Assembly: GCA_946699065.1 (NCBI GenBank)
Contig: CAMPDV010000114.1
Coordinates: 186,001 to 250,000 of the forward strand
DNA length: 64,000 nucleotides
Origin: Loxodes magnus
Lineage: Eukaryota; Ciliophora; Karyorelictea; Loxodida; Loxodidae
Reading direction: 5' to 3'
Shown: piece by piece, positions 1 to 64,000 of the stretch
Position numbering within the stretch: position 1 is the first letter of the stretch
Layout: every line of letters begins with the position of its first letter
Program-made: the position numbers and the translations under genes
Notes under the pieces: model-generated
What the model saw: the letters and a program-made list of their open reading frames with translations, nothing else
Database searches by the model: none
Told to the model about the DNA's origin: nothing

Positions 1-1306
1 TTCTTTATGAACTATCTATTTATTCTTTACTCAATTAGTCCAATATTTTTGGAGTAGCATCTAATCTAAACAATCATGTTCATTTGATTCTAATGCTAAG
101 ACTTAGCTTATATATTGAATTTAGTATTTTAATAGTAGGTTACTGTATTATTATATAACTAGATATTAAGAAAACTAATTCCCTTTGTATTAAAATAGCC
201 TTATATTAACTAATAGATAATTGCTAACGTTAAAATTAGGCTTTTCTTTAATAATTCATAAGATTAGATTCTTAACCTTATGAAGTGCTTTAGTATTAAA
301 ATAAGGATATAGAGGCTATCTTTTATTTTACTCATATTACTTTTATTTATAAGTGCTTTATTAATCTTTGTATATACACTATCTAGCAATTTAATTAGAA
401 AGCTAATTTCTACTCTAACCTTATTATATGCTAACTAGACTGTCTTCTAGATTCATTATTCAATTACCTAGCTTTTGATTCCAAACTACTAATTACTAAA
501 ATGCTTATATATAATATAATAATCCTTATTAGCTTTAATCTTACCTTCATCTATAATTAAGAGAGATATTTAAAATTAAAGAATAGAACATAAGGTCACC
601 TTACAGCTTCTAAAAGCTAAATAAAGAGGTATATAGTTTAATAAATAATCTAGTAAGCTAATTAGGTGACTAGCTATTTTAAGCAGTTCTATCTTAATAC
701 ATTTAATAAAAGTAGAGATATGCTTTATTAAAGGATGCAGAATGGTTAAATTAATATATCTACAAAAAAAGTCGGAAGAGAGATTGAAAGTAAGAATTAA
801 GTATCAAGGTATCCAAATTATAGGAATAAATTGAAAGAATAAAGTTTTTACTAGGAACCATAATGAAAGCAACAAGTTGTTTAGTTATAATCTAAAGAAA
901 AAAGCTAGAATAATTAATATAAAATAAACTAATTCCGCCTCAATATTATTTAAAGGATATTGGTAGCATAGATTTATTAAATTAAATGATGGTAATAATA
1001 ATTAGCTAAAAGGCTTAACTAACATAGGTTTATAATAAGTAATAAAAATATATAACCCATAGCATTGAGATTTCTATATAATATGATATCTAATTAATTA
1101 AAAAACTAGTTAATAGTATTTTATTTTCCTTTAGTCTAGTAATATATTGCTAAAGTCTTAAAGCAAAAAAGTAATATTGCTATATATAATGATAAGAGAT
1201 AAAAGATTCTACTAGATATAAAAAGAATAGATTAAAGCATCTTTATTATGAGATATCATGTGAGGTATATAGATAGAGAAGTTATTTAATTAGTTTTTAT
1301 ATAAAA
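1..1306. other. AT-rich intergenic, no clear gene
   Basis: No recognisable protein or RNA. A 43-codon ATG-to-TGA frame at 735-866 is the only stretch with slightly higher GC, but it has no recognisable motif. The last ~60 bases are the leader of the RING gene. Confidence 0.5.
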
Positions 1307-1720
1307 ATGGAAAGTTATTAATGTTCTATCTGTATTGATAAAGCTTAAGATCCAGTAGTAGCTTCTTGTGGACATCTATTTTGCTAGCTTTGTATTGATA
1401 GATGATTGGAAACCAATCGTACTTGTCCAGATTGCAGATGCAGTATATAAAGCATTATAAAGATAGGAGGTACCACTAATAATATCAAAATAATTCAAGA
1501 AAGTTATGGAACTAAAAATATAGTTAGAGATTTGTTCCTTTGGGTTGGTATAATAATAACTTGCTACTTCTTTTATATGGCTTTATTTTTGTGACTTGAA
1601 CCTACTTTAATTAATTTGGTTAAAAGAAAATTATAAGTGTCTTAAGTTTCTAATATAAGAAGTTCTTTCTATAATATTTTAAAAATCATTCAAGCACATA
1701 AAGCATCATATTTAAAATGA
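1307..1720 (+). CDS. Small RING-finger membrane protein (E3 ligase-like)
   Basis: A 137-aa protein that starts almost directly with a C3HC4 RING finger: Cys6, Cys9, Cys21, His23, Cys26, Cys29, Cys40, Cys43. The order and spacing match RNF5/RNF185-type ER ubiquitin ligases. The conserved Trp after the sixth ligand (residue 33) is encoded by TGA at 1403-1405, a direct sign that TGA is sense here; TAA/TAG occur as Gln (QLC, AQDP). A hydrophobic segment at about residues 72-98 (LFLWVG... to ...LFLWLEP) would anchor it in a membrane, probably the ER by analogy. The stop is the first TGA after the lysine-rich tail. Role inferred: E2-dependent ubiquitin transfer in membrane protein quality control. 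The exact family member is not certain. Confidence 0.85.
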
Positions 1721-2216
1721 TCTTAATGATTACTAAACTTCACACAATTTTTATTCAGATTTAAGTATCTTTTTTATAAAATCTTTATAGTCAAAGCTTA
1801 ATGAAAGCTTTTGATTAAATTTCTTGTTTTAAAATAAATTTTTTAAGTATAAATGTTTAGATACACTATACTTGATAAATTTAGTTATATATAAAATTCA
1901 TACTAAAGCTTTAATACAACTTATATACAATCTAAACTTAGATAAAGATGAAGAAGTACCAAGGAGCTATATTATCATATTCTTTAAAAGGACTTTCATA
2001 TACACTCTCAATGTATATTCTTAAATCTCATCGAAATATTATTTTAGTCTTACAAATAATTAGTTTACGCATAGATAAGCAAAAGATGCATTGAGTAATA
2101 AAGGCTCTAAGGGGTTTTAGATATGATTTCCATAAATTAATAAAAAAATAAAATATTAAAAGGAACATAAAAGGCAATGAAATTACTTAATAACCTTATC
2201 TCAAAAAAATAAATTA
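1721..2216. other. Convergent intergenic spacer
   Basis: Lies between the 3' ends of the RING gene and TMEM230. AT-rich, with no supported feature. Confidence 0.5.
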
Positions 2217-2573
2217 TCACATATATGGAATTTCATTCAATATTCTCACTCTTTCAATAGGCGTTCTTGCTTTATATGCTTTATAAAATTAGTAGCTATA
2301 ATAAAATCCTGGAATGCTTACTATCCCTCCCACACATCAAAAAATTAGACCTTTTGTAGGATCCTTACTCACTACCTCTGAAATACATCCAAAAATTATC
2401 AAAATTGCTCCAACTAAGCACAAAGTTATAGCACAAATAATATTTCTTCTTGGCAGACGTGGAAATTCATTTCTTCTTCGTTAAATTTCTAGTGAATTCA
2501 ATTATTTAGCAGATGAAGGAACTACAGACATAGCTTAATCTACTTCCTTCTCTTTATCCTCTCTTTCTTACAT
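2217..2573 (-). CDS. TMEM230: TMEM230-family membrane protein
   Basis: A 118-aa protein with two transmembrane helices. The sequence FPRLPRRNIICAITLCLVG leads into the first helix, followed by a short loop and a second helix ending IPGFYYSYQFYKAYKA. The order (basic P-R-R-N, hydrophobic helix with G-A-x-x-I-I-x-G, loop, PGFYY) is that of TMEM230/TMEM134 proteins, which sit on Golgi, secretory and recycling vesicles in animals. The N-terminal ~35 residues are charged and presumably cytosolic. One Trp in the second helix (LIFWCVGG) is a TGA codon. The start is the first in-frame ATG, the stop the next TGA after PYM. The C-terminal DD/FDD tail seen in animals is absent. Family assignment is fairly sure; vesicle role is from the family. 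Confidence 0.82.
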
Positions 2574-3681: not shown

Positions 3682-5316
3682 TCACATCCTACCAAATAAT
3701 TTCGGTTGGATAGAATATTCTATTATTTCCAAAACTCCTCCTCTTGTACAACCTGCAACTGCGGGATATATATCTCCTTCAGTAAAAGCCTTAACGTTCA
3801 TAAAAGCCCATCCATAGTCTACTTCATTACAAATAAACTTTATGTGACCACTTTGAGTATCGACGTAAACTTCAATCATGCCTCCTTCGTTTACTCTTCG
3901 ACCATAGTTAGGTCCTTATTTACTTCCATTTCTTAGTTATGATTCGTAGTTGTAGTAAGCTCATCCAGAAGGAAGATCACAAAAAGCAAAATTAGTGAAA
4001 CTATTTTTTTTGCAAACTCCAATTTTAAAGTTTGTTTTCCTATTTAACCTGATTTTCCATCTATATATGTTTCCAGGATGAAGAGGATACTACAAAATAG
4101 ATGTTCTTCAACTGTATTCTGTGAATTCTAACTTCTTATTGTTTGCAAATATTTTTACACTTTCATTAGTCTTGTACGGATCAAAAGAAACAGTTTGATT
4201 GTAGATGTTATAATTAGTATCTTGAGCTTTTTCTAGAGATTTCTTTTAATCGACTTTCGTACTATTGTTCCTTTTAATCTAAGGTAAATTTTTTTCTTAT
4301 AAAGTATATTTGACTTCTGGTGGAACATCATCAACTGAATCTTGATCAGAGTCATAGAAATCTTGAATTCTATTAGCGGATTTTTATTATGATACTTAAT
4401 TGTTGTAGATTTGATTATCTCTTATTGAATTCTCTTGCAATAAATGAAGTTCTGATAAGTTTCTTTATTGGTTTAATATATCTATTGTAGGTATTAAAGT
4501 TAATTCTTAAATAATATCAAGAGGTGTATAGGGTTAATATTTCTATATATCTAGTGCTTATTTATTTCCTTTATAGTTATCAGTTTAATTTTCCTTTTCT
4601 TACTTTCCTTTAAAACCGTTTAAAACAATATCCGTAGATCCAGCTCTTGGTCTATGATTAGCCTCAAGCTAAGGTTTGATTCTTTTTTATTATTTTTTTT
4701 GTTTAATAATTTGTAATTTAATTTTCTTATGCTCTAGTTTAATCTTTAATCTCTCAACCTTTTCATTTAAATCATGAATCTTCGTTTAAAGCTATTGTAT
4801 CTTTTGATCTTTTAGAGTCATCTCCTTATTTTTACAATTGATTAATTCAAGCAAGTAACATTTGTGCTCTTTGTACTCTTTCAAAATCAACATTTGTTTA
4901 CATGACTAACAGGTCATCTACTTGTAGTCACAAGCTTCACTTAGATGCTTTTACATCATTTTATCTTGAACAGTTAAGTTACACTATGGACATTCACTTG
5001 TCATGTAGTCACACTCATTTTCATGAATGTCTATATTTTTAAGCATAATCAATTGCTTGCAATCTACATACTTGCATCGTAACCTCAGCATTTCAAGCTC
5101 CTCTATGATATATTAAGGAAGTGGTTGAACTTCAAATGAAGAACATGAGCTAAAGCATTTTTTGTTTTTTAACCTGAATTCCTAGAAGCACTATTTGCAG
5201 AAGACAACCATACAAGTACAGCATTAAACTGGGTTTTTAACTACTCCATTACAAATTAAGCATATGAATTAAGGGCTAATACTGTCAACAAAGCGGGACG
5301 TAGCATATCCAGACAT
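3682..5316 (-). CDS. RING/TRAF-type zinc finger protein with C-terminal SPRY domain
   Basis: A 544-aa protein. Residues ~17-55 form a RING-like finger (ICLIC, CCTC, FCKQC, CFSSC). Residues ~70-150 hold TRAF-type zinc fingers, with pairs such as CKYVDC, ECPQC, CQSC spaced by H-x-x-x-C ends. About residues 160-215 are a K/Q/E-rich coiled coil, then a low-complexity linker. The last ~150 residues are a SPRY/B30.2 domain: SGWAYYNY (Trp by TGA), VYVDTQSGHIKF, GWAF and GDIYPAVAG. This RING-zinc-coiled coil-SPRY order is the logic of TRIM/TRAF ubiquitin ligases; SPRY would bind the target. The frame is open from start to stop with no intron needed (545 codons). Substrate and partner are unknown. Confidence 0.8.
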
Positions 5317-6572: not shown

Positions 6573-7847
6573 ATGGAATACGTTATGACTCCTTATGAAG
6601 CTGAAGCTATCATATAGCAACTATAGCTATATCCTATATAAGAGTATGGAAGTCCTCAGTGAATTAGCCAACATGAGTATATTTCAAAACTCAACTTGTA
6701 GTAGCACTTTTTGGCTAAGAACAAAGAAGATGAATTTATAATGGATGCTTTTGTAACATATGAGAAGATGGCCTTTCTAATATGTGACTTAATTTAAAGT
6801 GAGGTATGGAATACACACGTTTATAAAGACCATTTGAAAGATTATATTGAACAGAATATAAACTCTGCCAGAAAATATATGCTAACTAACCATGAAAGTA
6901 CCATTCTCAACTTAATCGAGATACTTCTTTTTCATAGAACAGCTTGTGAGTAAGTTGGTGATAATCTACTAGATCTTTTAGAGTACTGCTATCGAAAACT
7001 TATCTATTTCAGTCCTTCAAATTATCAAAATAAAGATTTAACAGCATTTTACGAAAGTGCTGAATTTGGCTAGGGAATTTGCGGCTTAACTATTATTCGT
7101 TATGTTTGTGAACATCTAGAGAATCTGAGTGTGAGCGTAGTTAGATAACTAACAGAAGAATAAGATATTTTTTGTGTTATTGTTCCCTTGCTAGAGAATA
7201 AGCCTTGGATCAGATAAACTGAAAAAGGTTATTTGGTTTTTGAAGAATAATAATGGAAGCCTTTTACTGATCGTGCAAGAGCAGCAAATCCAGAAGTTTA
7301 AATATGGCTTATTTTATACTATCTTTTTATGAGTTAGGATGTAAGAGCCAAATATGAGCTTAACTATTTTAGGAAGAATAATTTGCTGAGACTGAGGAAA
7401 TACATGAATGAAGTATTACTTGATTAGATTCCTGTATTAACGCCTATGAAAAGAGCGCTTGAAGAGCTTAGTCTTATGGGCGACGCGCCTCCTACAGGTA
7501 GCTCAGCTTTCATAATTTAGCAGGTCCCTGAGTTCAGAAAAATTTTAATAGAATCTGTAAAAGATTGAAAAACTATTGCAGATTATCAAAAATAAAATTT
7601 TCTAACAGAAACTGAAGAATCTAGAAAGAAAGATGCTGAGAGGCTCTTGAGTTGCTATAACATGGATCTTTTGGAACAAATGTATGATCAGCCGTAAATT
7701 GAAGAATAGAATTAGGCATGTAAGAATTGTGGCAAAGAAGGAACCAAAAAATGTGGTAAATGCAAAAGAGCCTGGTATTGTAGTAAAGAATGCTAGAAAG
7801 AAGACTGGAAATTCCATAAAAGAAACTGCGTTGAATTACTTTAATGA
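6573..7847 (+). CDS. ZMYND10: ZMYND10, dynein arm assembly factor with MYND zinc finger
   Basis: A 424-aa protein close to the human length (~440). The N-terminal pattern WISQHEYISKLNLQQHF, the internal ILNLIEILLFHRTACE, and the C-terminal MYND finger at ~383-420 (CKNCGKEG, CGKCKRAWYCSKECQ, HKRNC) align along the whole length with ZMYND10/BLU. In animals ZMYND10 acts in the cytoplasm in the co-chaperone complex (with LRRC6 and others) that pre-assembles axonemal dynein heavy chains, so it fits a ciliated cell. Two conserved Trp residues (QWISQH and KDWKTI) are TGA codons. No intron is needed. It is convergent with CPLANE1, another cilium gene, with 273 bp between the stops. Confidence 0.93.
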
Positions 7848-8120: not shown

Positions 8121-11100
8121 TCATTGATTATTGTTCGGAGCCATTAAGAAATTTTTTATTGTATTTCCTTCAAGAGTAAATAACTAGACAGGACCCTTTG
8201 GAACTTTCGGTGGAGGACTAGGACTTTAGCTTTTGAACCGAAACACTCTATAATTAGTTCTTCCTCTTTCTTGATTAATTGGCCACTAAAAGTGTATACT
8301 CGTATTACTGTCTTATAAGTCCGATTATTTAACCTCTATTTTTTTATCTTTTATCATTATTCTTGAGGGACTTTGCTAGTTTACCTATTGCATCGTAGTG
8401 AATTTACCAGCTTATTATGAACTACTTTTTTTCAAAGAAAAATGAGTCTTTTATTTATTGTAGTTCATAATCAATAAGAAATATTTCTTATATTTCAAGA
8501 TAAGCTTATCAAAAACACCTTACAACTTCTTTAGATCTTGCTTAGAAAATTTAGATGAAAAACGTTATTTTAATAATACATTTTTCAATTTCTGCCTCAC
8601 CAAATTTTCATCGAACTCCATACTTTCTATTTGTATTTTTTTCTTATCTGGTTAAACTAACTCTTGCTACATCGGGTATTATTGATTAGGATTTAGTTTG
8701 ATCCCATCATAAGTAAAGCTTTATTTTTCAAGAAAGCTTTGCAAGTTAAATTTTTCTTAGTTAGGAATTAGAGTTTTCAGTCATTTTCCATTATCGATTT
8801 TAAGTTTCTTTTTTTTACTCAAATTAAGTTAGTTTTAGCATTTAGATATAAAATCACTGTAAACTTAACTAAAATTGGATTGCTGATTACTCTATACTTG
8901 CAAAGTCGATACTTCTTTAATTATTCTACTAATAAATTGGTGAAAAGCAGGGTCTAGAAGTATTGGTTTGCAAGATTGATCTTAGATTTAACTCTTTAGT
9001 CACTAAGAAAACTCATTATATTTTCTTCAACTACGGAATTTTTCCTACTGACTAGGAATCAAATTAGCTTCTTTCATGTAAATGTTTAAGATATTAAAAT
9101 GCTTTTCTTCCAATTTATCTGACTATTTCAATATGGAATCAAATAAACTATTCTAACTATGAAAGTTTCTAAAATAACTCAACCTTAGCAAAGATTCTAT
9201 TTAATCTTCAGAGGATCTTATTTCCAAGTACCATAAAAAGATAAATAATTTGCTTAGCATGGATTTTATTTTTACAAAGACCACCTAAAAATTCTCATTG
9301 AAACTCTAAATATTCCAATTTTAAAATTCAAGGGAAAAATATTCTTTGAGTTTCTATAGCTCTAACGATGATTTATAATTATACTAGAATATTGATTGCT
9401 TGGGAGTTAAGTTTTAAATTAAGGCTACATATTGAAGTCATTTTTACTACTTGTTTAATGCTTTTGAAGAATCTTCATTTATTTTAATTTTAGAGATTTC
9501 AACACAATCTTTATGTATACTTACTTACATTTCGTATATTAGATTGAGATATATAGCAGGTATCAATTCTTAAGGAGCTATTTAGCATATCTCTAGTTAT
9601 TCCTCAAAACTTTATTTCTTAAACTGATCGTTCATAAAAGTTGAGAGTTAATCTACTTGATTGTTTCAGCATAAAATGCTAAATGTTATTTAAGGAGGTA
9701 AGCATTCAGTAAATTTATTAGATTCTACAAACCAGTAGCAAAACCCTGCCAATTTTTTATCAGATAATTGAATTGGCTTAGTAGCTAAATTGTCTATTAC
9801 TTTGATTACATCTTCAGCTGATTTAATTTGCTCTTCTTTGAAATTAAATACTTCAATAGGACTTAAAGTCTTTTTATCACTCAGAGCTTTTGCTATTATA
9901 AGTAGTACTAAACCTAACTCTTTAGGCTTTTTTGCTACTTGTTTAACAACTTCTCCTATTTTATTAAGATTTTACTAACAAAAATAATGGCAGATTTAAG
10001 CAGCAGAATCCTTAAAATTTTCAGAACTTAAGGTGTATAGATAAGTTTGGCTTGCAGTGAGTCATTCTTCATGAGCTTAAATAAAAATTGGATGAAACTT
10101 AAGCAAGAATTCGCAATCTTCTTTATTGAAGTAATTTTGCTAGTTTATAGGAGTAGGATTTTCATCTAAGGATTATACTATTTCTCATACATTTCTACGA
10201 AGCAGCTATATCTCTACTTCATTTATAATGTGTGCTCTTCTTTTGTTAAGTCAAGAAGCATTGTTAAGTAGAATAAAGGCTAGAGAATAGAACAGCACAT
10301 TGATTGCATTAGCTTAGTGATTCTTGAATTAAACAAGACTGTATATAATCAGTTAAGTCCTAAGTCTTTAAAGCTTTACTTTGCAATATTAAAGCTCTAA
10401 TAGTTTTTCAGCATAACTTAGAAGATTAAAAGCATAGAAAGGCTCTCCGTCAGCTAGTAAATATTTAAAGACATTGAAAGTTAATTGGAACAATCATTCT
10501 ATCTAAGTTAAGGTTAACCTTGGACTTCAAAATAAAGATTGAACAACATTGATATAGTTTTTAAACACATTACAAGGCTATGCTTTCTTTTAGATTATAA
10601 TAGCGTTTGTCAAGCATGTACTTCCCTCTAGTTTTACTGCTTTAGCCTGATTAGTAGTATAGTTAATTTCATTACTGAGGACAGGAGGAAGCAATTAGTC
10701 AATTAAGCTAGTTATGCTTTTAAATTAATCCTTATTATTTAGACTACTCAAGATTCTTAAAATGGCTGCAGTGTTAAGAATATCCTCTTTATGTTGATCT
10801 TCTTTATATTCTGTAGGAATAGGGTTAGTTCTATGAGTCATTGTTAGCATTGACAAATTAACATTGTTTAATTCTAATTCACTTGCTAATGAGCTTGTTT
10901 TAGGCATGTTTATAAACTCAAAGATTTTAACCGTAAATCCATTTGAGAAAAGTATATTGTTTTGCTATGGATGAAAATGACCAGAATATACTGAGGTATA
11001 CTATTTTAGCTGCTCTACTGGTGTTTAGAAATCTATGCTGATAAATCTTTTTATCTCATTCCCATTTTCCATAAAAAATAAAGGATCTCCTAATCGATTA

Positions 11101-12251
11101 AATATTAAAAAACTACCACATTTCAAACTTGTCAAAAGAAGCACATCATCGTAAGATCAGCAAATATCACTTGCTCATAAACTTAGCTAGCCATCCTCCT
11201 ATAGATTTGGCATGTCTTCTCCCTACATATATTTATAAGGCTTAACTGCTATTATCTAAGGTCCTAATCCTTAGTTTATAAGCTTAATATGCTACTAGTT
11301 TTCATTTATAATATAGCTAGTTTGTACCATTATTAGTTAGCATAAGAAAATATGAGATGAGCTTAAATAAATGGCCAAAACTTAACCAGAGTTATCAAAT
11401 CTGCATCTAATGTCATGTTTTTATTTATTACTCATATTAAATTCAATAGGGCTATAGTATTAATACTTTAAAGTGTTGCCACTAACCATATACTTACTAT
11501 ATGCTCTGTCTATGCATTGTAGCTCTACTGTAGTAAAATTAAGAACTAATTAAGAATAATCTTATTGAGGATCTGACTATAAATTAACTTAAGCAATTAT
11601 CAAATGATCTTCAAGAAAGCAAGCTTCTACTGAATTCGTTATAAAAGAGCTTTAAATGTTGTTGAAGACTTCTTCTGTCGATAGCGATCCTTCTGAAGTT
11701 GTTTGCTTTTATATTTCTTATTCAGATGTTTCTTCAACCTCTGACTTATCGCTATTAAGAAATTTTCAACTTCCAAGCACATCTTCTTGACTAGAGGATA
11801 TTAAAATTTGTTTAGATTTAGCTGTCCAGATTCAAAATTAGTCATTAATAATAAGAAGTATGTACTACCCATTATTTGCTATGAAGGTTCTGCTTTATTA
11901 ATTAGCATTTATCTTTTTAAATTACGAAGGAGCATGAAAGATCTATAGCTTCTAAACCTTTTTATCTAATAAGAAGCTTTTAAAGCTTTATTACACTCTG
12001 AATAATCCTCCTATAAATCGTCCATTACTTGATAAGCCTATACTTATGAAATTTTGAGGCAGCTTGTTTAGTTAAGGTAAACTGTGCGTAGTTTATCCCT
12101 AATCGTTTAATTCCCCCAATCTGTAATAATCAAGGATTATCAATTTAGGATCATTTTCTTCAGAAAAGCGATTATAAAGAACGAAAGGCCAAGGCTTCTT
12201 ACGCTAAATTTAGATAGTTTTAAGTTTCTTTAGACTTGACTGTTTTTGCAT
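8121..12251 (-). CDS. CPLANE1: CPLANE1 (JBTS17)-like ciliogenesis effector
   Basis: A 1376-aa protein, one uninterrupted frame. It opens with IQRKKPWPFVLYNRF, matching the KKPWP start of animal CPLANE1, and continues as an N-terminal beta-propeller. A second clear match is the WASDICWSYDDVLLLTSL / CGSFLIFNRLGDPL blade. The rest (from ~residue 480) is alpha-helical, ending in a basic, Pro-rich tail (SPSPPPKVPKGP). Animal CPLANE1 is about twice as long, so the ciliate form lacks much of the C-terminal half. In animals it works with INTU, FUZ, WDPCP and RSG1 at the basal body to recruit IFT-A and build the cilium. The start was chosen at the ATG just before KKPWP. An open frame upstream in another phase was judged accidental. 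Several Trp codons are TGA. Confidence 0.85.
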
Positions 12252-13824
12252 TTTTATCTAAGTCTTTAGAAAAAGAAATACTTTAAATACATTTACGAAA
12301 GTAAACTAATACAAGTTATTAGCCATCTGCCAAATCTATTCTCCCACTTTCCTCGTATCTACATATCTTATATTAACGCTTCAAAATCTTCGCTTCTTGC
12401 TATTTCAATTTATTTTACTGTTCCTTTGTTTCTAATTTTACTATAATGATTTATTTTAAGGAATAATATCTAAACCTCTATAAAATTTGGATAATAACTC
12501 ATATAAAAAACCATTTACATACATATGAATAAGCGTCTAGACTTTTATAAGCTTACAATGAAGCAGCTTTATTTATGCAAATAGCACTTAAAGATTGATC
12601 CTAAAATAAATAGATAATTAAGGAAAGATTGATAGACATTATAGATAATAAATAATTAGCTAAATATTAATTACTTAAAGATATTGTTAGTTAACTATAT
12701 AGATGTAAATATTATTTTAAGAGCATTTCATACTATAATATAATTTGTAGATTTAGTTCATTGTACTGCTTTCTATTTTATTCCTAATTGATTAATTGAC
12801 GTTTTTGTTTTGTAAACTAACTATTTTTGGTGAAATACATTTATTAATAAGGATTCTCATTAAAATAGTTTTAATTTACTTTTTACTTTTTCTAACTTGC
12901 TATTATTAGTCTAAAATTTGAACTATTAAATCTTTAATTAGGTATTGAAGATGTTTCTGATAAATACTAATATTGTATAGATAGAAATATGAATAATGAA
13001 TTATTCTAAACTATAATCTAAGAAGCTTTGATTAAGATAGTAAGAAAGCCATTTTAGATAGGTTTAGCTATAATTCCTCAAAGATATTTATAATCTTATA
13101 GTATTAAAGAATAAAATATTAAAGGCTATAAAAACTAATCCTTTTACTATTTAACTAATCTATATCGAAAATAGTTTACAATTAGCCTTAATCTAGTTCT
13201 TAGTTTCATTTAGATAGTTTATAGGGTTGAATAATTAAACTAGATTGAGTTAATAATATAAATTAGTAATTATTAGTACCTAAGCTAAGGATACTATATT
13301 ATGCTTTTTGAAATAATCTTTTATCAGTATTAATATATTAATAATCATTATTGTCTATGTGGGTATATAAAACATTTTAAATATATTCAATTATAAAGTA
13401 AAGGAGTTAATATCGTTAAAGATTTATAAATGCTATGTATGATATCATACACTGTATGATCAAAATTATATAAGCTATTACAAAGTTTAAATATAAAGGG
13501 GAAAACATTTCACAGAAAATCAGAGTTAAGAAGAATTAAATTGCTGAAAATGGAGAAAGATTTAAAGAAGAACTTAAAAAATAAAAATAAAATAAGAATT
13601 AAGAAATATTGATGTGTTTAAAATGAAACTTAAAGAAATTATTATGTCTTTAATCGAAGGAATTCTTATAATTAAAGATGTAAAACTCTTTCATTATAGA
13701 AAAAATAAAATTTAAATAGTATTATTTAGCATATTTGCTAGATTAAATAAGTTAGATAGTAATATTTTGAACTTAATTTTATGATAAGATTATTAGGTTA
13801 CTATAAAATATTCAATTAAATGTT
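12252..13824. other. AT-rich intergenic
   Basis: 1.6 kb upstream of CPLANE1 and downstream of the F-box-like gene. A short perfect palindrome (tatgatatcata) lies near 13438. No gene supported. Confidence 0.5.
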
Positions 13825-15297
13825 TCAATTCTTTAACATTTTATGGAACTTTAATTTCAATTCATTAAGAACAATTTGAATATCCTCCTTTTGGTTCCAT
13901 TCTAAAACTTTTGCTAATTTTTTCAAATTAATTTTCTTTTTTCCATACATTACATACTTAAAGATAGCTGTTCTTTTGGTATGATTTTCAAAATTTGACC
14001 AAATCTAATTACTATCATGAATTTTATACTTCAAAAGTAAAATTTTAGCAGGTATATTTCTTATGATAGAAGACTTCAAGACTAAATAGAACTATCAGGA
14101 CTTTAAGTTTTTTATTAGATTCAACATTTCAGAATCGAATAATAAATAGGGAATTAAGAAATTCAGCTTGTTAATTCTAACTTATCTTTTGTTACATGCA
14201 TACTTCCTAAGTGAGTAGTCACTAACTAAATAAGATTTGTTTCCTTAGTCATAACACTTAAAAGCGCTTTAATCCCTTAGAATTTCTTAAGGAGTAATTT
14301 TATATAAGCTTTACACTTCTTACAAGGTCAAAAGAAAGAAAGATTTATGATTTGAGTTAATTTGAATTTCTTAATTCAAGGTTATGCTTCTACAATTAAT
14401 GCATATAGGGCGCTTTAAGCAAGGACAGTAAGTAACATCATTAGATTGCAATATTTGAGAGCAACCTATACATGTCTGATTATATAGATTTATTAGAAAT
14501 CCTTTTTGCTTTTACACTTCATTCATATTAATTCCTATTTCAATCTACACCTCATTCATTTCTTGCTATCTATTAAATGCCATAATTGAAGCTTTAAGTA
14601 CTTCTGAGCTTCATGTAACCTTATACCATTATTTGCAAACTATTGCACAGTTGGAGTATATTTCAGATATGTTGCAGAACTAGTAAATAAGAATTAGAGA
14701 TCTAGAGTTGAGATGATGTTAACCTTCTTCTTTGAACTATTTCTGGTGCAATCATACTGAATTCAAATTTTTCTTCTCATAAATATGAATGAACAAATCA
14801 TTCCATCTTTTAATCCATTAATCAAGCTCCAGATTTCGTTCAAATGAATTAAGCTTAGATAAATTTTTAATATCTTCATATCTAATTTTTTAATTGAATA
14901 TAGGGATATAGCAGTGCAAATGAAATAGGCTATCTATTTTATTTTAAGGAGTTTAAATTACTATCTGTCTTCTTCGGAATTCTTTATTACAAACTTCACA
15001 CTTTTCTCCGTGATATTATTCCACTATAGTTATTTCATTCTTGTATATTTTACTAAAGCTGTCTATTTAATTGCTATACTATAAATTTATCATTGGCTAT
15101 ACATTAGGAAAGAACTATTAATTTATTAGGTTTTAGTTTAGTAACTAGTTAATATTGGTTTAGTGGTTATTTATAAGCACATTTTATCTACTTCTGGCGT
15201 TGTTGAACAAGATTTAGTCTCTATATCTATTGTTACCTCTTTCATTTTGCATTTCATTTTAGTAGTTGGGTAATGCTGCTTAATTTCTCTATTCCAT
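13825..15297 (-). CDS. Cys-rich PARP-zinc-finger/F-box-like protein, copy 1
   Basis: A 490-aa protein, paralog of the plus-strand gene at 61597-63072. After an Asn/Gln-rich N-terminus (~95 residues) comes C-x2-C ... H-x2-C (EKCEVCNKEF, then LHCYIP), followed by KIRYEDIKNL and LDQWIKRW, which resembles a PARP-type zinc finger. At ~205-240 lies an F-box-like segment (FCNISEIYSNCAIVCKQWYKV). At ~277-304 are zinc-binding Cys pairs (CIGC, CPC, CINC). The C-terminal ~45 residues (TAIFKYVMYGKKK, KLAKVLEWNQ) are nearly identical in both copies. An F-box would suggest an SCF substrate receptor and the zinc finger a nucleic-acid or protein contact; both are inference. TGA encodes Trp in SVWLH, VTWSS and LKSWQF. 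Confidence 0.8.
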
Positions 15298-15451: not shown

Positions 15452-16641
<1,190 letters not shown>

Positions 16642-17281: not shown

Positions 17282-18151
17282 ATGTAAAATGATAACCTTT
17301 AAGACAGGCAAGAGTAATTTGCTTAAGATTATGAAAACTAAAAAAATGGTAGAGATATTTCAAGCATCTAAGAAAATGGGACTAACACTTAAATTACTTT
17401 TAACGACACATCAATTATTGAAACAGAGTAAAAAACTAAGCATTTTTTAAAGAGTAAAGATTATAATAAAATAAGTCTAGAGAGGACGTATAAATGAAAT
17501 CCTTATTATAAAAAAAAACCACCGTATGAACGTTTTTGGATACTATGCTTAATTATGTGTGTAATTACTTTAAGCTTTATAATAGGAACCCATTCTATCC
17601 CCGTCTGATTTTCAGTGGATAATATAACTAATACTCACAGTTTAGGAAGATTAGGAGTCACTTCAGTTAGATTTACACTTTTATATAGAAGAGATTAAGA
17701 TGAAGGAGGTTGTGGAGAAGATAGTGAACATATGCTTATTAATAATTTTGGCTCTTTTAATGATTGCGAATAAATAAAAAAAGTTATAGACGCTGCCAAC
17801 AGCTATTCAGTGCTTTCTACTTTAGCGGGTTTTTGTATTTTAGCTTGAATTGCTAAATTAATAGCGTTAATAGAAGGTTATGACTTCTTATATCCTATAA
17901 CAGGATATATATTTCCACCTTTATCTCTATTTCTCTATCTAATAGCATTTGCAACTTATTTTGGATAGCTAGAACTTGAGTTTAATTAAGAAGAGTGTAT
18001 AGATAAGTGATAAGATGGAGAAAAGAAGTACTACTGTGCTGAAGATGGCCCTGCTATCTGTATAGTATCCTTTCTTTTTTTGTGGATTACATTTATTTTA
18101 TTTTCAGTTATTTATTGGAGAAGACCTGTAAGAAAATACGAAGTAGAATGA
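17282..18151 (+). CDS. Four-transmembrane protein, family unknown
   Basis: A 289-aa protein. The first ~85 residues are polar and Gln/Asn-rich (cytosolic), followed by PPYERFW and four hydrophobic helices: ILCLIMCVITLSFIIG, VLSTLAGFCILAWIAKLIALI, GYIFPPLSLFLYLIAFATYF, and ICIVSFLFLWITFILFSVIYW. The loop between helices 1 and 2 (~75 residues) carries a Cys pair (GGCGEDS, FNDCEQ) and the loop between 3 and 4 has CIDKW and YYCAED, so both loops are probably outside and may be disulfide-bonded. The plan recalls claudin/PMP22-like tetraspan proteins, but no signature motif was found. The tail is short and basic. The start is the only upstream ATG in frame; several Trp residues are TGA. Its stop is only 22 bp from the convergent glycosyltransferase stop. 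Confidence 0.75.
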
Positions 18152-18173
18152 TACTTTTATAAATTATTTTTTA

Positions 18174-19487
18174 TCAAGTTTCATGACATCCAATTTTAGG
18201 GTCGTCAAACAGTCTATTTTCTTGTAGCAGTTAGTAAAATATTGTTTATTAGTCGAAGCATTCTGGTCTTTTAAGCTTTCTGAATGTAAGATGCAAAGAT
18301 CAAGTATTTTGTTTTAATTCTCTAATGTACTCAGTTTTGTTCTTCAGCCCTATGTCTATCAGAAATTTTTATATATATTTAGACTATTTTGGTTTCTAGT
18401 TAGCTCCCAATTTAGTTAAAAAATTCATGTACTTCTTTGGAATTGTATATGGTAGACTAATCTTATTAAGTTGATTTTATTTTAGCCTTTTTAAAGCACG
18501 AATAATAGCTTAGCCACCATTGAAAAGATATTATGTAGGATCATATGTTTTTTTAATCTCTTCCATTACCTCTCACAAAAATTTAGATTATTAATCGAAA
18601 TGAAGCATGTCGTTTGTTATAGAAAAGTCCTCTACTTCTTTGAATCATTCTAGCAAGAAGTTTTATACTAGAAATTTTTTGGGAAAAGGTGCTAAATATA
18701 ACCTATCAGTGTCTACATATATTCCTCCAAACTTATAAATCAGGGATAGGCGTGTTAAGTCCGCTTTATGTTAGTTTTATCATTTCGAAAGAGATCAAGC
18801 TTCTCTATTTGCCAAATTACGTAATGGTGTACCGACAAAAACTTTTGCAAAGTATTATGGAGGTCTCAATATACCAACAAAATAATTGCGATCATTAAAT
18901 TTAGCAAAATCAGTTAAATTTAAACTCTCAGAAAAATAATGATCTAAGCATGAGGATGATGCTTAAAAAATGTTTCTAGTAAAATCATATCTATTTTTCT
19001 TAATTAGTTTGCTCCGAATCAAATCATAAACACTGTAAAATTAGAAGTTGTTTTAAAATCTTCTCATTGGAATAATCTTTGATCACCGAAATGATAATTC
19101 TACATATCTTTTGTAAAGGTTTCATTCGTAAAAGTAATGTCTTTTTCTTCTATTTTTTCTTATTATTAAACCATTTCGTCTCTTTTATTTATTTCTTAAA
19201 GTAGCTTATGTTCAGCAATAGGTATTTCGTTTGTAGTATTTAAAGTGGAAGGTGTTTTTATCTATTATTACTCCTTTTCTCTTGTCTCTTAAACTTCTCC
19301 AGATGAACTTTAAATTTTGTTTTTCTTTATATTAAGAGTCTTAAACTAAATCTATTAGTCTATAGACTATTTAAACTTAAAAGTCATTAGATAAAACTCA
19401 AAAATAATGAAGCAAACTGCGAAAAGAGTCAAAAATATAATGACTTGAAGCTCTAAATTTACTAAACTTACTTTTAATAATTTTCAT
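18174..19487 (-). CDS. DXD glycosyltransferase, type II membrane protein (one-base frameshift)
   Basis: About 431 aa once repaired. A signal anchor (VIIFLTLFAVCFIIFEFYLM) follows the start, then a polar stem and a catalytic domain of the A4GALT/Och1-type sugar-transferase fold: NFTVFMIWFGANQLRK, HPHAQIIIF, LSLIYKFGGIYVDTDRLY. The DXD motif (DTD, ~253-255) would hold the metal and nucleotide sugar. Expected place is the Golgi, transferring a hexose to glycans; donor and acceptor are unknown. The ATG is followed after 16 bases by a 19-nt intron (19453-19471). Between IIIF and SESLNL the frame slips by one base at a run of five A (18932-18936). With one more base the whole gene closes in 432 codons. 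Either a sequencing deletion or a young pseudogene. Confidence 0.8.
19453..19471 (-). other. 19-nt intron (glycosyltransferase)
   Basis: Minus-strand GTAAGTTTAGTAAATTTAG directly after the first five codons. Splicing joins the only ATG to the signal anchor frame. Confidence 0.75.
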
Positions 19488-39442: not shown

Positions 39443-39496
39443 TTTTATAACTTTTAAATATGTAAGAGCTTATTAACTTTAATCTTATTAAGCATG

Positions 39497-47880: not shown

Positions 47881-50800
47881 ATGGGTCTTACATGCTGTAA
47901 AAAGTAAAAATCAAAATCATAAGTAGAAACAGAAGAAATACCAGAGCATTATACTAGAATGGAAACAGCCTAAGATGAATAAATTATGAATATGGAGTTT
48001 AAAGTGAAATTTTTCAACTTTAAAGTTATTCAGTTACCTGAAGATACTTATTTCTTGCAAATTGTCCAAGATAAGCAAGTTTTCTAAAGCTAAAATATTT
48101 ATGCTAGAAATGAGGGCTCTTTTAATAACTATATTTGTGAGTTTAATTATGAGACTAATGTTAAAAAGTTGCTATAATCGTTCCTTGAAGTTAAGGTTAA
48201 AACATAAAACTAGATTTATGGATAAGCGAAGATTTAGATATAAAATTTGGTAGTAGGACCAATAGACCAAGATTTTGCCTTAATAAATCCTAAAACTTCT
48301 AAAGTAACAGGTTCAAGGATAAATTTTAAGGCTTAATTGAACTAGTTGACTTAAGTTTAAATATAGCTTTAGTAAATAGAGTTTAAGTTGCTTGACTAGA
48401 AAATCTAAACTGATGTTTAGGGAAGCCCAAATCCTAAAAAGAATAAATACAAAAAATAAGTTCAAGGAAAATCAAATTAGATAGTATGCTAAAAATATTA
48501 TTTTATCATTACCTCTAAATCAGCAGATCCATTAAGCTGCTTTATTTCATAAAAGCAACAAAAGACTTAATGGACCTTTTAGTAAGGCTGAAGTTCAGAA
48601 TCATAACTTTCTTTCAAAACTACAAATGAGTTCTTAAAACAACTTCGATTTAAGGTTTGCTTATTTAGGAGTTTTTCAAGAAAAGATTTTGAGCAAATTG
48701 GTTAACTTTGGATTAACATGGACAAAATGTGCAATAAAGATGAGTTTGTCAAAAATATGAGTTTTGCAGAGTTGAAAAAGTACGACTTCCAGAAAAAATC
48801 AGACTACAGAGATTTATTTATGTCTTAAATACTTAACGATAAGTCTTAGCTTTATAAAGAGAAAATCTCATTTGAAGAAACTTTCTCTTTAAAAGAAAAC
48901 TTATAGCTATATGGAAAAAATATTGGCAAAGTATATCTCTAGCTTTTTATACGTGAGACTCCTGTCTTTTAGTAAATAAACTTTGGATTTAACACTGAAA
49001 ATGGTATAGAGATAGTTTCTCCTAGTTTATACCAAATTAACAGAAATGTCTAGCAAGAAATTCCTTAAGAAATCAAGAGAATACAATCACTATTCTCTTC
49101 AATCCAAAAAATTTGAATAGAGAAATCGAAAAAACGCTCAAAACAGTCTTAGATATTTTCAAGTAATATAGTAGAGTTCAATGAGATGTTAGATAACTTG
49201 AATGAAATGATAAAGATATTAAATCAGTAAAGCAGCACAGGAAAGAAATTATTTATGTATAACTCAAAAAAAGAACTTAGCAATACGTAAAAACTGTTCC
49301 TACAGATATTAGAACATACGATAAATTAAGTTTAAGTGGTCTAATTTACAATCTAGAAATACTATCTTGAAGCTTTGAGAGCATTATTAAATAGAGAAGA
49401 ATTCAGTATTGGACATTTGAGTTTAGTTGGTCTAGAATAAAATGAATTTAAGAAGAAGTCAAAGTTAGTCAGGTAATATCTTAACCATATTTAAACTCTT
49501 CTGAAATGAATACTCACTAAGTTAAACTCTAAGGGAACATATGAAGAATTTAAGGAGTTCTCTTATTTTTTCTGCTCTTTAGCTTATTTAAGATTGCCAG
49601 GCTTTAGAAGCTAAATTATAAGTTGTATGAATGAATAATAAGAACCTGTAGAAGAAAAGCAAATGGACGTGTTCGATTGATAGCACTAAGTATATGATCT
49701 ATTAGGAGATTTCTAGTTTATAATAGAAGAATTTGAATGAAAAAGGAAATTTATAAAGAAAGGATATTCTTATTTTATGTTTATACAACATTGGGTGAAT
49801 CTTATTATTAGAGAAGCTAACAAAGCAGTAGATTGAAATTAAGTGATTGGATATAAAATAATAAGAAACGCTTTTGTGTAAGAAATGATTAAGTTTGAAA
49901 TTTATAAATGACCTTAGGCTATGAGAGAATCTTCAAAGATCCTACTTTATGATTAGAGATCAATAAATATTTTTGTGCAAACTATTTTTAAAAAAACAAA
50001 TGCTTTTATAATAGAACATGTAACTTGTTGCTTCGAACTCCTCTCTGAGTGATTTGAATTTCTATATTAAAACTCTCTTGATTTACCTCATGACTTCGAT
50101 ATGGATCTTTTACTAAAAGCGCTTTAAATAGCAGTAGAGAATGATATAGTAACGAGCATAGTATGTGCTATATATTTTATATATAAGAATATACAAATTT
50201 TTGAGAAGGATTTTAGAAAGCAAATACATGACTGATTTGACCAAAACTTCTACACCTTTTTTCTACACTGAAATTATTATGTTCGAATGATCTCCAACTG
50301 ACTTGTATGCTATCAATTTCTAGAGCATGAACTTACGTTTTATGGTAAATCACCTTAGAAGCTTATTAACTTTTTCGCTTTTAGGGTTGAAGAAAACATT
50401 CAGAAAGTAAAAAATGCGATAAAGTACACCAAAAATAAAGCTTTAGAATCTCTAAAGAAGGATTTTGACTAAATACCTAGCTAAAGCAGAGTATACATGG
50501 AAAGAGCGATGGAGCAATTTGAATAAACACTAGTAAAGCGTAAAGCTACTATTGACGAATACAGTAACTTACTTAAAAATAAGCCAAACAAGAAATACAA
50601 GTACACAAACTTCTTTCCTTATCCAATCATCTAGATTCCCTGTAATTTATTTAAAGACGAGACAGAAAACTTTTAAAATGTATTTTAAATATCTTAATTA
50701 ATCAAAATTTACGCTTTTTAAAAGATATATCAATTAGGGGTTTTTACTTATAAAGCTAAATGGGATAGTGCTGTGACTCTTTGCAATTACAGATAGACAC

Positions 50801-56615: not shown

Positions 56616-56630
56616 GTAAAATAAGTTTGC

Positions 56631-58655
56631 TCATTTGCGATAGATAGCAAAGTTGCGAAGGTAAAGAACCCAGCCAATACAAATGACTACAGCAGCCATA
56701 ATAAAATCCATCATTATATTGATTTCTTTTTCGAACTCAATATTCAAAAGGGCAGTAGGATCTGAACATTTTATTTGCTTTTCTTCAGAATCTTTACTGC
56801 AATCTAGGTCTAAATCATCAAATTCGTTCTACATAAAAACTTACCTAAACAAAGGCACTGAAAGTATACTAAGCATCTGAAATATATTTCATCCAAACAA
56901 TGTAATCTGGATAGTCAGCATTGTTGATTAGCAAACCAGCGAATAAAAAGAAAGGAACAAAAAGAACTGGTGAGAGAGCAAAGGCTGCTTCCATAGAATC
57001 AAACAAGGAAGTTACAATCAGGGTTTTACCACATGCATTAAAGAATCCTCCTAACATAACAACATAGAAGATGAAGAAATGACTTGCATCTTCAGTGTTA
57101 AGTCCAATTGAAAAGTAAATTATGAGAGAAAGTAACATACAATTAAGTGAACCCAACATCATATAGTGAGTTAATCGGGAGAAATAATATGTAGAAATTG
57201 AATACATTCTAGCCATTTAAGCTCTTTCGAAGCAAAGTCTGTCTCTTAACACTATAATTAAAGAAAAAATTACTATCCAAGCAAACCAAAAACATTCCAC
57301 CAGTGATTTAAAACATTTGAAGCAAAAACAAACATTTAACTCTTAAACCAATGGAATGATAATTATCGTCTAAATATGCATAAGTGACTACATAAATACC
57401 AGCCTAAATCATTTAGCCAATAACCCAGGGTCAAAATTATGCGGTTCTAAATCTTCCAACCGTACACCACTTTAAAAGGAATCAATAGGCTTCAAGAACA
57501 CCAGCTTCAGAAACTGTTTCATCGGATTTTAGAGGTCCGAATGAAGTCAACTTGCATACATTTGGAACATATGCTTTCTAAATTGCTTAAAATGCATTAT
57601 CATAATTCTTGCCAGCCGTATCTTTAACTTCTTAATCAGGCATGTCAGGATTAGCTAGTCGTAATTTCTCTTCATGCCAATTTTTAGATAATAAGTTGAT
57701 ATAGTATTCAGCTGGATTGTAAAATTCAGGAAGAGGGAATCCTAATTTTTCAAAATGATCTTTAGCGGCTAAACCATTTCCCTAAAAATTAAATATTTAC
57801 ATGATAAACAATCACACCTTTACCCATTAGTAATAGTTAATCGAACATATTGTAAATCTCGGTTGAAGGTTAATGAATAGTTGCAATAATTGTATGTCCT
57901 ACTTTAGCTAAGTCTTTTACTTTTGTTAGTACCTTTATAGAACTCATACTGTCCAGTCCAGTTGTTGGCTCATCCAAGAAAAGTAATGATGGCTTAGCTA
58001 AAAGCTCGATAGCCATAGATACCCTTTTCTTTTCTCCTCCTGATAGCTTTTTGTCTAAATGATCTCCAACAATTTCATTACAGCAGTGAACAAGAGACAT
58101 ATCCATAAGCATAGTCTAAACAATTTCTTCTCTTTTATCTTAACTCTCGTTATAGAGACGGAATTTAGCAGTGAAATGCAATTATTCAAATGCTGTTAGT
58201 GTGGCTTACAAAATATCAAATTACATCAGATAGCCAGCGAAAGAAGAGAAACCTTCATATTTAATGTCTTTATTATTAACCAATACTTCTCCTGTAATTG
58301 TCAAACCTTTTAGATACGCCTGACGATTACTCAATATATTTAACATTGTTGTTTTACCTGCTCCAGAACCACCCATAATGGCTAAAAATTATCCAGGTGC
58401 AGCATATCCAGAGCAGCCTTTTAGAATTTCCATAGGAGGTCCATATTTAGGACAGCAAGGAGGCATACTTCTGACCTTTGGTCTTGCAGTACATCTTATG
58501 TTGTTCCACACCAAATGTACTGGATATTTCACACGGTTTTGGAAAACCGAAAGAGTTCTTCTCTTTTCCTAGGTGATAGTTATCCTAGAACTGGTTCGAG
58601 AAGCAGTAAGTTCCATCTCAACATCCCCAGCAAGTTAAGCGTACTTATCTACCAT
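56631..58655 (-). CDS. ABCG-type half-transporter
   Basis: A 655-aa protein with the ABCG order, nucleotide-binding domain first and then six membrane helices. Motifs: Walker A MGGSGAGKTT, Q-loop LMQFDIL, signature KLSGGEKKRVSMA, Walker B LLFLDEPTTGLDS, H-loop IIATIHQPS. The membrane part has the family's FERAQMARMYSISTYYFS and YPDYIVWMKYISDAQYTFSAFV. Three introns of 19, 22 and 16 nt are needed; their removal gives exactly 656 codons, and the middle one brings the segment before FERAQ to the same length as in ABCG2. ABCG proteins dimerise and move lipids, sterols or drugs out of the cell; the substrate here cannot be told. The N-terminus has a short Arg/Ser/Thr-rich stretch before the NBD. 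Confidence 0.95.
56829..56844 (-). other. 16-nt intron (ABCG, third)
   Basis: Minus-strand GTAAGTTTTTATGTAG between FSAFVQ and NEFDDL. Removal opens the frame to the last membrane helix. Confidence 0.88.
57252..57273 (-). other. 22-nt intron (ABCG, second)
   Basis: Minus-strand GTAATTTTTTCTTTAATTATAG. Splicing gives the right family spacing before FERAQM. Confidence 0.88.
57782..57800 (-). other. 19-nt intron (ABCG, first)
   Basis: Minus-strand GTAAATATTTAATTTTTAG inside IVYH-GNGLAA, a conserved stretch after the H-loop. Confidence 0.92.
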
Positions 58656-61596: not shown

Positions 61597-63072
61597 ATGG
61601 ATTAGAGAAATTTAGGTCTTTTGCCCCATTAATAAAATGATATGCAAAACGATAGAGGAAATAATAGAGCTAGAGGGTAGAACTCGTTAAATTACAACAG
61701 AAATAGATGAAACGCAAATTAAAATATCAACTAATAGAATAACAATAATCCATTTCTTAATCATAACCCTTTAGGCTTATTCTTTTTACCTAACTTCCAG
61801 CCTATCATAAACGTGCAGTAGAATGAGTAAATTGATAGCTTTAATAAAATATATAAGAATGAAATCATCATTCTTAATAGAATCTATGGAGAGAAGTGTG
61901 AAGTATGTAACGGTGAAATACATAAAAGTTAGATTGTTATATAAGCTCCTCAAAGTAACACAGCTAGAGCCACTCACTTACACTGCTATATTCCTAAGTA
62001 TAACTTGAAGATTAGGTATGAAGACATTACTAATCTGTCTTTCATTACCTAGTTTGAATAAAAGCTTGATCTTGATCAATGAATTAAGAGGTGAAATAAT
62101 CTATTCATCCATATTTATGGATAGAAAAGCTTGATTTCTGCATGGCTGTAGCAGAAAGATTTCAAATAAGAAAACTAATATCGCATAAATTCTAAGGCTA
62201 TTATACTTATTTTCTAGTTCTGTAGCATATCTGAAATATATTCCAAATTTGCTCTAATTTGTAAATAATGGTACAAAATTACTTGGAATATAGAAGTAAT
62301 TCAAGGCAAACTGATGCTCTTTAATAGATAGCAAGAAATTAAGGAATAGCAGATAGAGTTAAGCATGACCATGAGTGAAGTCCAAAAGTAGAAAGTTACC
62401 CTTATAAACTTATATAACAGGACTTGCATAGGATGCTCCACAATTCTGGAATCAAATTAAGTAGTATATTGCCCTTGCTTGTAGAGACCTGTTTGCATAA
62501 AATGCAGAAGTTTGAACCTAAATTAAGAAGTTTAGATAAACTAGAACTACAATAGCTTCTTCTTACTTACTCTATAAGAAGCTCAAACTCTATACAAGAT
62601 AACTCCTTAAGAAATACTTAGAGACAAGAAAATCTTTAAATTTTATGACTAAGGGAATAAAAACTATCTGATAAGCGATTTTTCTTTGAGATAGTATGTA
62701 TGCAATAAGAGATAAACTCGAATTAATAAGCTCAAATATTTGCTACCCTACTTAAAACTAGACCTTGATTAGTTAAATCTCATCTAAAACTTGAAGCCTT
62801 GATAATTCTATCTAGTTATTAAGTCAACTATAATCAGAAATGTACCAACAGAGATTCTTGTTCTTAAATATAAAATTCCAACAAACCAGCAAAATCTGGG
62901 GAAATTTGAGATTACTACTAAGAAAACAGCCATTTTTAAGTATGTGATGTATGGAAAAAAGAAACTAAAGTTGAAGAAATTAGCGAAGGTTCTAGAATGG
63001 AATCAAACAGAGGATATCCATGTAGTTCTTAATGACTTGAAGTTACTATTTAGAAAGAGTTAAAAGATGTGA
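61597..63072 (+). CDS. Cys-rich PARP-zinc-finger/F-box-like protein, copy 2
   Basis: A 491-aa paralog of the gene at 13825-15297, collinear along its length. Asn-rich N-terminus (QNDMQNDRGNNRARGQN), C101-x2-C104 with HLHCYIP (PARP-finger-like), LDLDQWIKRWNNLF, an F-box-like helix pair near 205-240 (FCSISEIYSKFALICKQWYKI), zinc pairs at ~277-304 (CIGC, CPC, CIKC), SFFLLTLQEAQTLYKITPQE and the strongly conserved end TAIFKYVMYGKKK, KLAKVLEWNQTEDI. Both Trp codons in QWIKRW are TGA here but TGG in copy 1. The middle (LLTLQEAQTLY ... LISDFSLRQY) weakly resembles the XPA core fold. Likely a DNA- or ubiquitin-linked adaptor; function is not known. Confidence 0.8.
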
Positions 63073-63302
63073 ACTGTTCTCATAATTGAATTAATTTAGA
63101 AATTTCTCTATTAATTACTATAATTTTTTATATTCAAGCTATCACATTATAACTTCCAGTAGCTTATTTATTAAACTAGCCTTTTAGTAGTCACAAAATT
63201 AGAGCTTTCATCTTAATTAAAAGCTAGTTTTATCTCAGCAGTATTTGCGCTCAAATCAAAAGTAATTATATAATCTAATCCATTATAATAAAATTAAATA
63301 GT

Positions 63303-64000
63303 ATGAAAGAAGAAAGACCAAGAAGAGCTTAAAGTAGATAAGGAGTATAATTGGAATTAGACTAATCAGTTATCAAATTAACTATACTTAGCTTTACTAT
63401 ATCAGGCTTCTAATTGTTCTGTTTAAGTTAAATTATTTAAAATAAATTGAAAATAGAATGCCTTTTCTATTTGTAAGTTCTATTTAAATATATTTAAATA
63501 TCATAATTAATTAGCTAATGTCAAGTATAAGCCTATTGGAATATTGAGTAAAGTAGATGCTTAAATAATAACAGCTTTAACTAAAATAAGTTAAGCTTAT
63601 AAACATTAATTTCAAAATATAATTTCTAGTGTATTTTAAAAATACATCTTAAGAGATTTTAAGGGAAGACAAATAATCAAAATAAGAGAATTTAGTGAAC
63701 TAAGAAATGATCTCAGTATGATAAAAGAAATTCCTTATTAATAATTTAAATGAGTAGAAAAGGAATAATAATTAATAGAAGCTTATACGTAGTAGAACTG
63801 CTTTCTATAAGAGAATTTACTTTATTTATTTGATAAAGATTTATCAGTATATAAGAGAGATAAAATATTTCTAATTATTCTCAAAAAGCTAATTATTAGT
63901 GAGATATTTATTAATATTATAATTATCTCTTGGTATATTATTAAAGCTATACTACCTAATATCTAATTCATCTTAATTTAGTCTACACAACGAGATAATC
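63303..64000 (+). CDS. Partial gene at window end, unknown
   Basis: Starts MKEERPRRAQSRQG; a 16-nt intron at 63345-63360 then joins it to TNQLSNQLYLALLYQASNCS and onward to KYKPIGILSKVDAQIITALT, RDFKGRQIIKIREFSELRND and VEKEQQLIEAYTQQN, still open at the last base. GTAAGT...TTAG at 63473-63514 (42 nt) could be another intron, as it keeps the frame. Towards the end there is a hydrophobic stretch (IFINIIIISWYIIKAIL). No family recognised. The gene lies on the same strand as the F-box-like copy 2, 230 bp downstream of its stop. Confidence 0.6.
63345..63360 (+). other. 16-nt intron (partial gene)
   Basis: GTATAATTGGAATTAG; splicing joins the ATG to a long coherent frame. Confidence 0.6.

Follow-up and report, generated by a model that had tools for sequence, protein, structure and literature searches.

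The macronuclear genome of the ciliate Loxodes magnus very probably uses the karyorelict nuclear code (NCBI table 27), in which TGA is read as Trp within genes and is also the only codon that ends them, and TAA and TAG are read as Gln. We analyzed this code in one stretch of 64,000 nucleotides (the window; positions 186,001 to 250,000 of contig CAMPDV010000114.1), together with searches of the whole assembly. The sequence shows both meanings of TGA, TAA and TAG as Gln, TGA at those gene ends that homologues can anchor, and tRNA-Trp genes with an unpaired position 27.43. The karyorelict nuclear code is reportedly treated in Seah et al. 2022 (Peer Community J.). The dual meaning of TGA is already published for L. 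magnus and its relatives, and there is nothing new in the phenomenon: table 27, with TGA as Trp or sole stop, is the code given for this species (PMC11441545), and the window is a clean and easily checked example of it. Its interest is that a stop codon which also stands for an amino acid goes against the textbook view of stops and shows that termination can depend on the place in the message. An earlier annotation made from the letters of the window alone (the sequence-only reading) had named this ambiguous karyorelict code, which was the correct reading.

Tryptophan at internal TGA codons and glutamine at TAA and TAG

When the six frames of the window were read from stop to stop, no open stretch of at least 900 bp was found with the standard code, as compared with 33 when TGA was the only stop (37,734 bases in sum, maximum 1,857). 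The genes that carry the argument on sense TGA are the following.

31695-33608 (start uncertain), minus strand: acetyl/propionyl-CoA synthetase (ACS) gene; sense TGAs 33552-33554, 33525-33527 and 32613-32615; stop 31695-31697
13825-15297, minus strand: paralogue A; sense TGAs 14752-14754, 14611-14613 and 14095-14097; stop 13825-13827
61597-63072, plus strand: paralogue B; sense TGAs 62080-62082, 62092-62094 and 62800-62802; stop 63070-63072
62143-62145 and 62284-62286, plus strand: TGG sites of paralogue B that are paired with TGAs of paralogue A

The ACS product was compared with PDB chains after all TAA, TAG and TGA codons had been masked as X, and the best match carried Trp opposite all three internal TGAs. 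A scan of bacterial genomes with a single ACS protein as query found no relative; with a 3-row ACS alignment as query, at least 596 matching stretches were obtained, of which the best 80 were kept. In these loci the three columns were Trp in 79/79, 78/79 and 79/80 cases, i.e., in 236 of 238 cells, and the background of Trp among all aligned ACS cells was 2.2%. The first column was partly selected, because one of the two scan patterns included its Trp, and the second and third were free of such selection. A state of affairs in which TGA never aligns to Trp is contradicted by these columns. A fourth TGA, at residue 638, falls beyond the conserved end, and we took it as the stop. In the 17 TAA columns of the same alignment Gln was the best-scoring residue (26.1, with Glu second at 5.7). 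TAG had only two scored columns, with Gln at 2.6 and Ala at 0.5, and the raw counts put Ala first. Three true CAA codons of this gene scored best as Glu, so that its Gln sites are variable.

Paralogues A and B lie ~46 kb apart, share 308 of 482 aligned residues and have no Pfam match at E 0.01. Four of the seven TGA places in the pair are TGG/TGA exchanges, two in each direction, and one is TGA/TGA. The remaining two are a TGA/TAA pair in a low-complexity N-terminus and a TGA located upstream of the gene, which has no partner.

The genome-wide searches covered an assembly of 705,730,643 bases; published sizes are 706 Mbp for the macronuclear and 848 Mbp for the micronuclear assembly of L. magnus (PMC11441545). 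For the kinase test we used the first 60 of 136 scored protein-kinase matches (8 of the 60 were retained despite weak motif scores for the choice of strand), and each codon was scored against the other sequences. TGA (40 cells) was read as Trp with a log-odds score of 110.0, the next residue being Phe at 9.4. TAA (284 cells) gave Gln at 121.2, followed by Lys at 41.8 and with Glu at -25.4, and TAG (132 cells) gave Gln at 75.2 and then Lys at 33.6. Majority-residue columns held 28 of the TGA cells, and in these the residue was Trp in 25, Ile in 2 and Leu in 1. The best-conserved Trp column of the kinases comprised 36 TGG and 18 TGA codons among the 60 sequences. The control codons behaved as expected (TGT as Cys, 217.5; CGA as Arg, 48.0); the rows for TGG, CAA and CAG are unfair controls, because same-codon cells were omitted and TAA, TAG and TGA were masked.

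In the code of Tetrahymena and Paramecium (NCBI table 6), UAA and UAG are Gln and UGA is the sole stop and never sense; L. magnus shares the first two features and differs in that UGA is also sense. If table 6 applied here, the internal TGAs would be introns, pseudogenes, frameshifts or assembly errors. Tiny introns do exist, and the gene finder made false TGAs on crossing one of them in the gene of an ABCG-type transporter. Yet the ACS columns, the TGG/TGA exchanges between the paralogues and the 18 of 60 kinases with TGA at the best-conserved Trp make this explanation extremely improbable. Raw gene-finder counts of TGA were inflated by such frame slips at introns, and we therefore worked with 74 sense TGAs selected by curation. 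This set omits the last part of the RING/SPRY gene as well as those genes whose ends are unclear (P11, P17, DUF229, DUF1765 and the last exon of the DEAD-box gene), and the last exon of the ABCG gene was positioned only after the set had been made.

The meaning of TGA was also assessed on Pfam models, by reading it as W, C, R, G, Y, F, L, K, S or Q and comparing the bit scores. The genes with listed coordinates in this part of the analysis are given below.

1307-1594, plus strand: RING-finger gene (Pfam RING models); sense TGA 1403-1405 inside the RING domain; putative stop TGA 1592-1594, placed from the sequence
3682-5316, minus strand: RING/TRAF-type zinc finger and SPRY gene; sense TGAs 4108-4110 and 3961-3963
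3682-3684, minus strand: probable stop TGA of the RING/TRAF-SPRY gene, outside the 16 clear stops
49897-50376, plus strand: DUF1765 domain that contains internal TGAs, best read as Trp (margin 5.4 bits)
43416-44931, minus strand: gamma-glutamyltranspeptidase (GGT) gene; sense TGA 44824-44826; stop TGA 43416-43418

Trp was the top reading for SPRY (45.5, with Tyr next at 43.3, a margin of 2.2 bits), for DUF1765 (64.2, with Cys next at 58.8) and for a glycosyltransferase with two models, Gly_transf_sug (37.8, with Lys next at 37.1, a margin of 0.7) and Gb3_synth (26.0, runner-up 25.0). It also ranked first in six of seven RING models, those for which nine or ten readings yielded a reported score. 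In an ABCG exon Trp was not favoured, and the test was uninformative.

Several observations weigh against the karyorelict code as the explanation. RING model PF14634 ranks Trp second lowest of the ten readings; Caps_synth, a third model on the same glycosyltransferase, places Trp lowest (17.1) and Leu best (22.4); and DUF229 favours Tyr over Trp (130.3 and 128.6, i.e., by 1.7 bits). Furthermore, a TGA of the DEAD-box helicase stands opposite Met and Arg, one TGA of the SPRY gene is opposite Lys of DDX1 (a weak match), and the single internal TGA of GGT is aligned with Ala or Asn in its three listed matches. To these may be added that the depletion of TGA close to stops, described below, is weak in the window by itself. 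Trp need not be conserved where a sense TGA faces other residues, as in the DEAD-box, SPRY and GGT genes.

The sequence-only reading had placed a conserved Trp on TGA in the RING, ACS, ZMYND10, SPRY, CPLANE1 and GGT genes. This held for RING (six of seven models), ACS (236/238) and SPRY (on the Pfam score) and failed for GGT. In the ZMYND10-like gene the MYND finger alone was matched, and both internal TGAs lie outside it; human ZMYND10 would have Trp facing both. The gene that had been labelled CPLANE1 has no Pfam match and no PDB match at E 0.01.

The slight preference of DUF229 for Tyr, and the second place of Glu for TAA in ACS, might be taken to indicate that TGA stands for some other residue (Cys as in Euplotes, or selenocysteine), or that TAA and TAG are Glu as in Blastocrithidia. 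But Trp is the top residue for TGA in ACS, the kinases, SPRY, DUF1765 and six of seven RING models, and Gln is far ahead of Glu for TAA both in ACS (26.1 vs 5.7) and in the kinases (121.2 vs -25.4), so that the chance of another residue is close to nil. In the nonstop code of Blastocrithidia (PMC12153298, PMC13092985; NCBI table 31), UGA is likewise Trp and a tRNA-Trp(CCA) with a 4-bp anticodon stem is present; it differs in that UAA and UAG are Glu and UAA also stops, whereas here both are Gln and UGA stops.

Gene ends and the context of sense and stop TGA

Whether TGA is the only stop was examined at gene ends that homologues can anchor. The 26S proteasome subunit Rpt6 gene is the one such end in the window.

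15452-16641, minus strand: 26S proteasome subunit Rpt6; putative 17-bp intron 16184-16200; stop TGA 15452-15454

The two PDB homologues listed for Rpt6 terminate at the residue immediately before this TGA. In addition, each of the nine histone H4 genes recovered from the genome terminates in LYGFGG-TGA. Hence none of the ten anchored ends (Rpt6 and nine H4), a small sample of the genome, is TAA or TAG. The other 15 of the 16 clear ends in the window were chosen as a TGA at which the coding signal drops, and they give no independent test of TGA against TAA or TAG, because they were selected as TGAs. With the ACS columns, the paralogue exchanges and the 60 kinases, the Rpt6 and H4 ends bear out the code as given in the sequence-only reading, with TGA as Trp and as sole stop and with Gln for TAA and TAG.

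A Condylostoma-type code (table 28), in which TAA and TAG would likewise terminate genes close to their 3′ ends, has in its favour that it is a related published code, that few ends are anchored by homologues and that most window ends were chosen as TGA. It is nevertheless very unlikely to apply, given that the nine H4 genes and Rpt6 end in TGA and that the final 20 codons of the 16 modelled genes contain 10 TAA and 7 TAG in frame. In the codes of Parduczia sp. and Condylostoma magnum (PMC4967479), termination is likewise context-dependent and UGA is read as Trp; in Condylostoma the other former stop codons also end genes, and here none of them does so at the anchored ends.

From a code of this kind it follows that ribosomes must separate sense from stop TGA by context, as the sequence-only reading had stated and as the literature agrees. 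In a published model (PMC4967479) translation is the default, and termination occurs near the transcript end, perhaps by means of the poly(A)-binding protein. In L. magnus, UGA and UAA, but not UAG, are described as depleted over ~20 codons before stops (PMC11441545). In the window, TGA was found at 0 of the 320 codons that lie within 20 codons of the 16 stops and at 74 of 9,358 elsewhere (Fisher P 0.18), and TAA at 10/320 and 456/9,358 (P 0.18). When placement within genes was considered, the final 20 codons held 0 of 54 TGAs against an expectation of 1.99 (P 0.12), and 10 TAA against 14.09 (P 0.16). For the last 35 codons, a cut-off that was set post hoc, there were 0 TGAs against 3.51 expected (P 0.026). 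TAG was not depleted near stops. The depletion thus runs in the published direction, but weakly, and one window cannot establish it.

It could be argued that sense and stop TGA are distinguished mainly by a local signal beside the codon, rather than by the distance to the transcript end. T was found at +4 in 10/16 stops and in 20/74 sense TGAs (P 0.009, for one of twelve positions and uncorrected). But the 60 nt downstream of the stops contain 42.9% T and are T-rich throughout, so that composition can explain the excess of T at +4, and the 20 sense TGAs share this T; a local signal as the main cue is therefore improbable. The content of G and C was 18.9% in the 60 nt past the stops and 29.2% in the coding portion of these 16 genes; the published values for L. 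magnus are 18.6% for the 3′ untranslated region and 33.5% for coding sequence (PMC11441545). The window matches what is known of L. magnus under table 27 in TGA as Trp and sole stop, in TAA and TAG as Gln, in introns of ~17-20 bp and in a short AU-rich tract past the stop, and no differing feature was found.

Stop codons of convergent genes can lie very close to each other. In the gene pairs at 18149-18176 and 39440-39499 they are just 22 and 54 bp apart, so that the 3′ untranslated regions must be very short or overlapping.

18149-18151, plus strand, and 18174-18176, minus strand: two convergent stop TGAs, 22 bp apart

tRNA-Trp genes and a possible decoding mechanism

We searched the genome with a tRNA-Trp pattern that permitted the anticodons CCA or UCA, and the reversed sequence served as control. 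There were 126 matches and none in the control, and the anticodon was CCA in all 100 matches listed. Two tandem arrays were found: one with 59 genes on contig C148 (155200-171200) and one on contig C67 (482301-492300) with 47 genes according to ARAGORN and 49 anticodon arms by motif. Position 27.43 was unpaired, which leaves a 4-bp anticodon stem, in 107 of 108 tRNA-Trp(CCA) arms of the arrays, the mismatch being U.C on C148 and A.C on C67. By contrast with these, both single tRNA-Trp genes on contig C110 have position 27.43 paired and a full 5-bp stem, and 27.43 is paired in 7/7 arms of the tRNA-Phe control. About 17 of the 126 matches fall outside those inspected.

The amplification of tRNA-Trp as such was considered as a special feature and rejected, as tRNA-Phe genes are likewise very numerous (244 pattern matches, with 10 in the reversed control). 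Copy number hence says nothing about Trp, because tRNA-Phe is also abundant and partly arrayed. The tRNA-Phe genes are dispersed and also form a tandem array of 18 with a spacing of ~376 bp (contig C22, 46472-52892, and elsewhere).

A tRNA-Trp(CCA) with a 4-bp stem is already reported in Loxodes, as cited in PMC13092985 and PMC12005148, and the tRNA-Trp gene set is a side result that is worth a look. The array layout was not found in the literature searched, a weak statement since the search did not cover the primary Loxodes tRNA source; the main text of PMC11441545 contains no word that begins with "tRNA".

The most probable mechanism is as follows. TAA and TAG are read as Gln, and TGA within the coding sequence would by default be decoded as Trp; the decoder is most likely a near-cognate tRNA-Trp(CCA) with an anticodon stem cut to 4 bp. 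Competition at TGA, a cue from poly(A) and its binding protein, and the actual incorporation of Trp would be as in published work on such codes. A further suggestion, which we regard as doubtful, is that the composition of the tRNA-Trp gene pool sustains the reading of UGA, so that the share of the 4-bp and 5-bp classes might set decoding; it is based on at least 107 arrayed genes with a 4-bp stem and two single genes with a 5-bp stem. Under this suggestion the 5-bp single genes should read mainly UGG. The two types of mismatch at 27.43 could reflect separate origins of the shortened stem. The abundance of tRNA-Phe genes, the matches outside those inspected, the earlier reports of a 4-bp stem in Loxodes and the C43 that both arrays have in common all speak against this proposal, and a single origin of the short stem with a later change at position 27 would be just as likely as two origins. 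The tRNA-Trp gene set may offer a handle on how the double meaning of TGA is maintained.

Two closely similar genes for the release factor eRF1 were seen on contig C196, ~35 kb apart, in which the NIKS motif is kept. In this pair FLCENTF stands in place of the usual YxCxxxF, and the residues before NIKS are unlike those of the human protein. A third match of the eRF1 search scores above the C196 pair.

Other genes and introns of the window

A codon-based gene finder reported 21 coding segments (39,318 bases), some of which hold two genes, and one RING gene was found beyond them. Scans of the 64-kb window for tRNAs and Rfam families gave no match, and neither did six-frame Pfam scans of two of its unmodelled stretches; further such stretches lie at 12363-13854, 19301-21564, 33609-35458 and 63043-64000. 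The remaining genes with listed coordinates are as follows.

2217-2573, minus strand: TMEM230/134-like gene (Pfam TMEM_230_134, 2.9e-08); internal TGA 2337-2339; stop TGA 2217-2219
6573-7847, plus strand: MYND-finger (ZMYND10-like) gene; internal TGAs 6660-6662 and 7566-7568; stop TGA 7845-7847
8121-12362 (start uncertain), minus strand: long gene with coding signal, labelled CPLANE1 in the sequence-only reading; 14 internal TGAs; stop TGA 8121-8123
56631-56633, minus strand: stop TGA of the ABCG-type transporter, a gene with tiny introns; its end is placed by the frame past a 16-bp intron

Besides the 17-bp intron at 16184-16200, the reading frame suggests GT-AG introns at 57782-57800 (19 bp), 57252-57273 (22 bp) and 35734-35753 (20 bp), and a further putative intron of 16 bp in the ABCG gene; the published intron length of Loxodes magnus has a mean of 19.3 and a mode of 17 (PMC11441545). 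A large gene for a NACHT-type NTPase was also observed at 21565-26238 on the plus strand; it contains ten internal TGAs and matches the pentapeptide repeat weakly.

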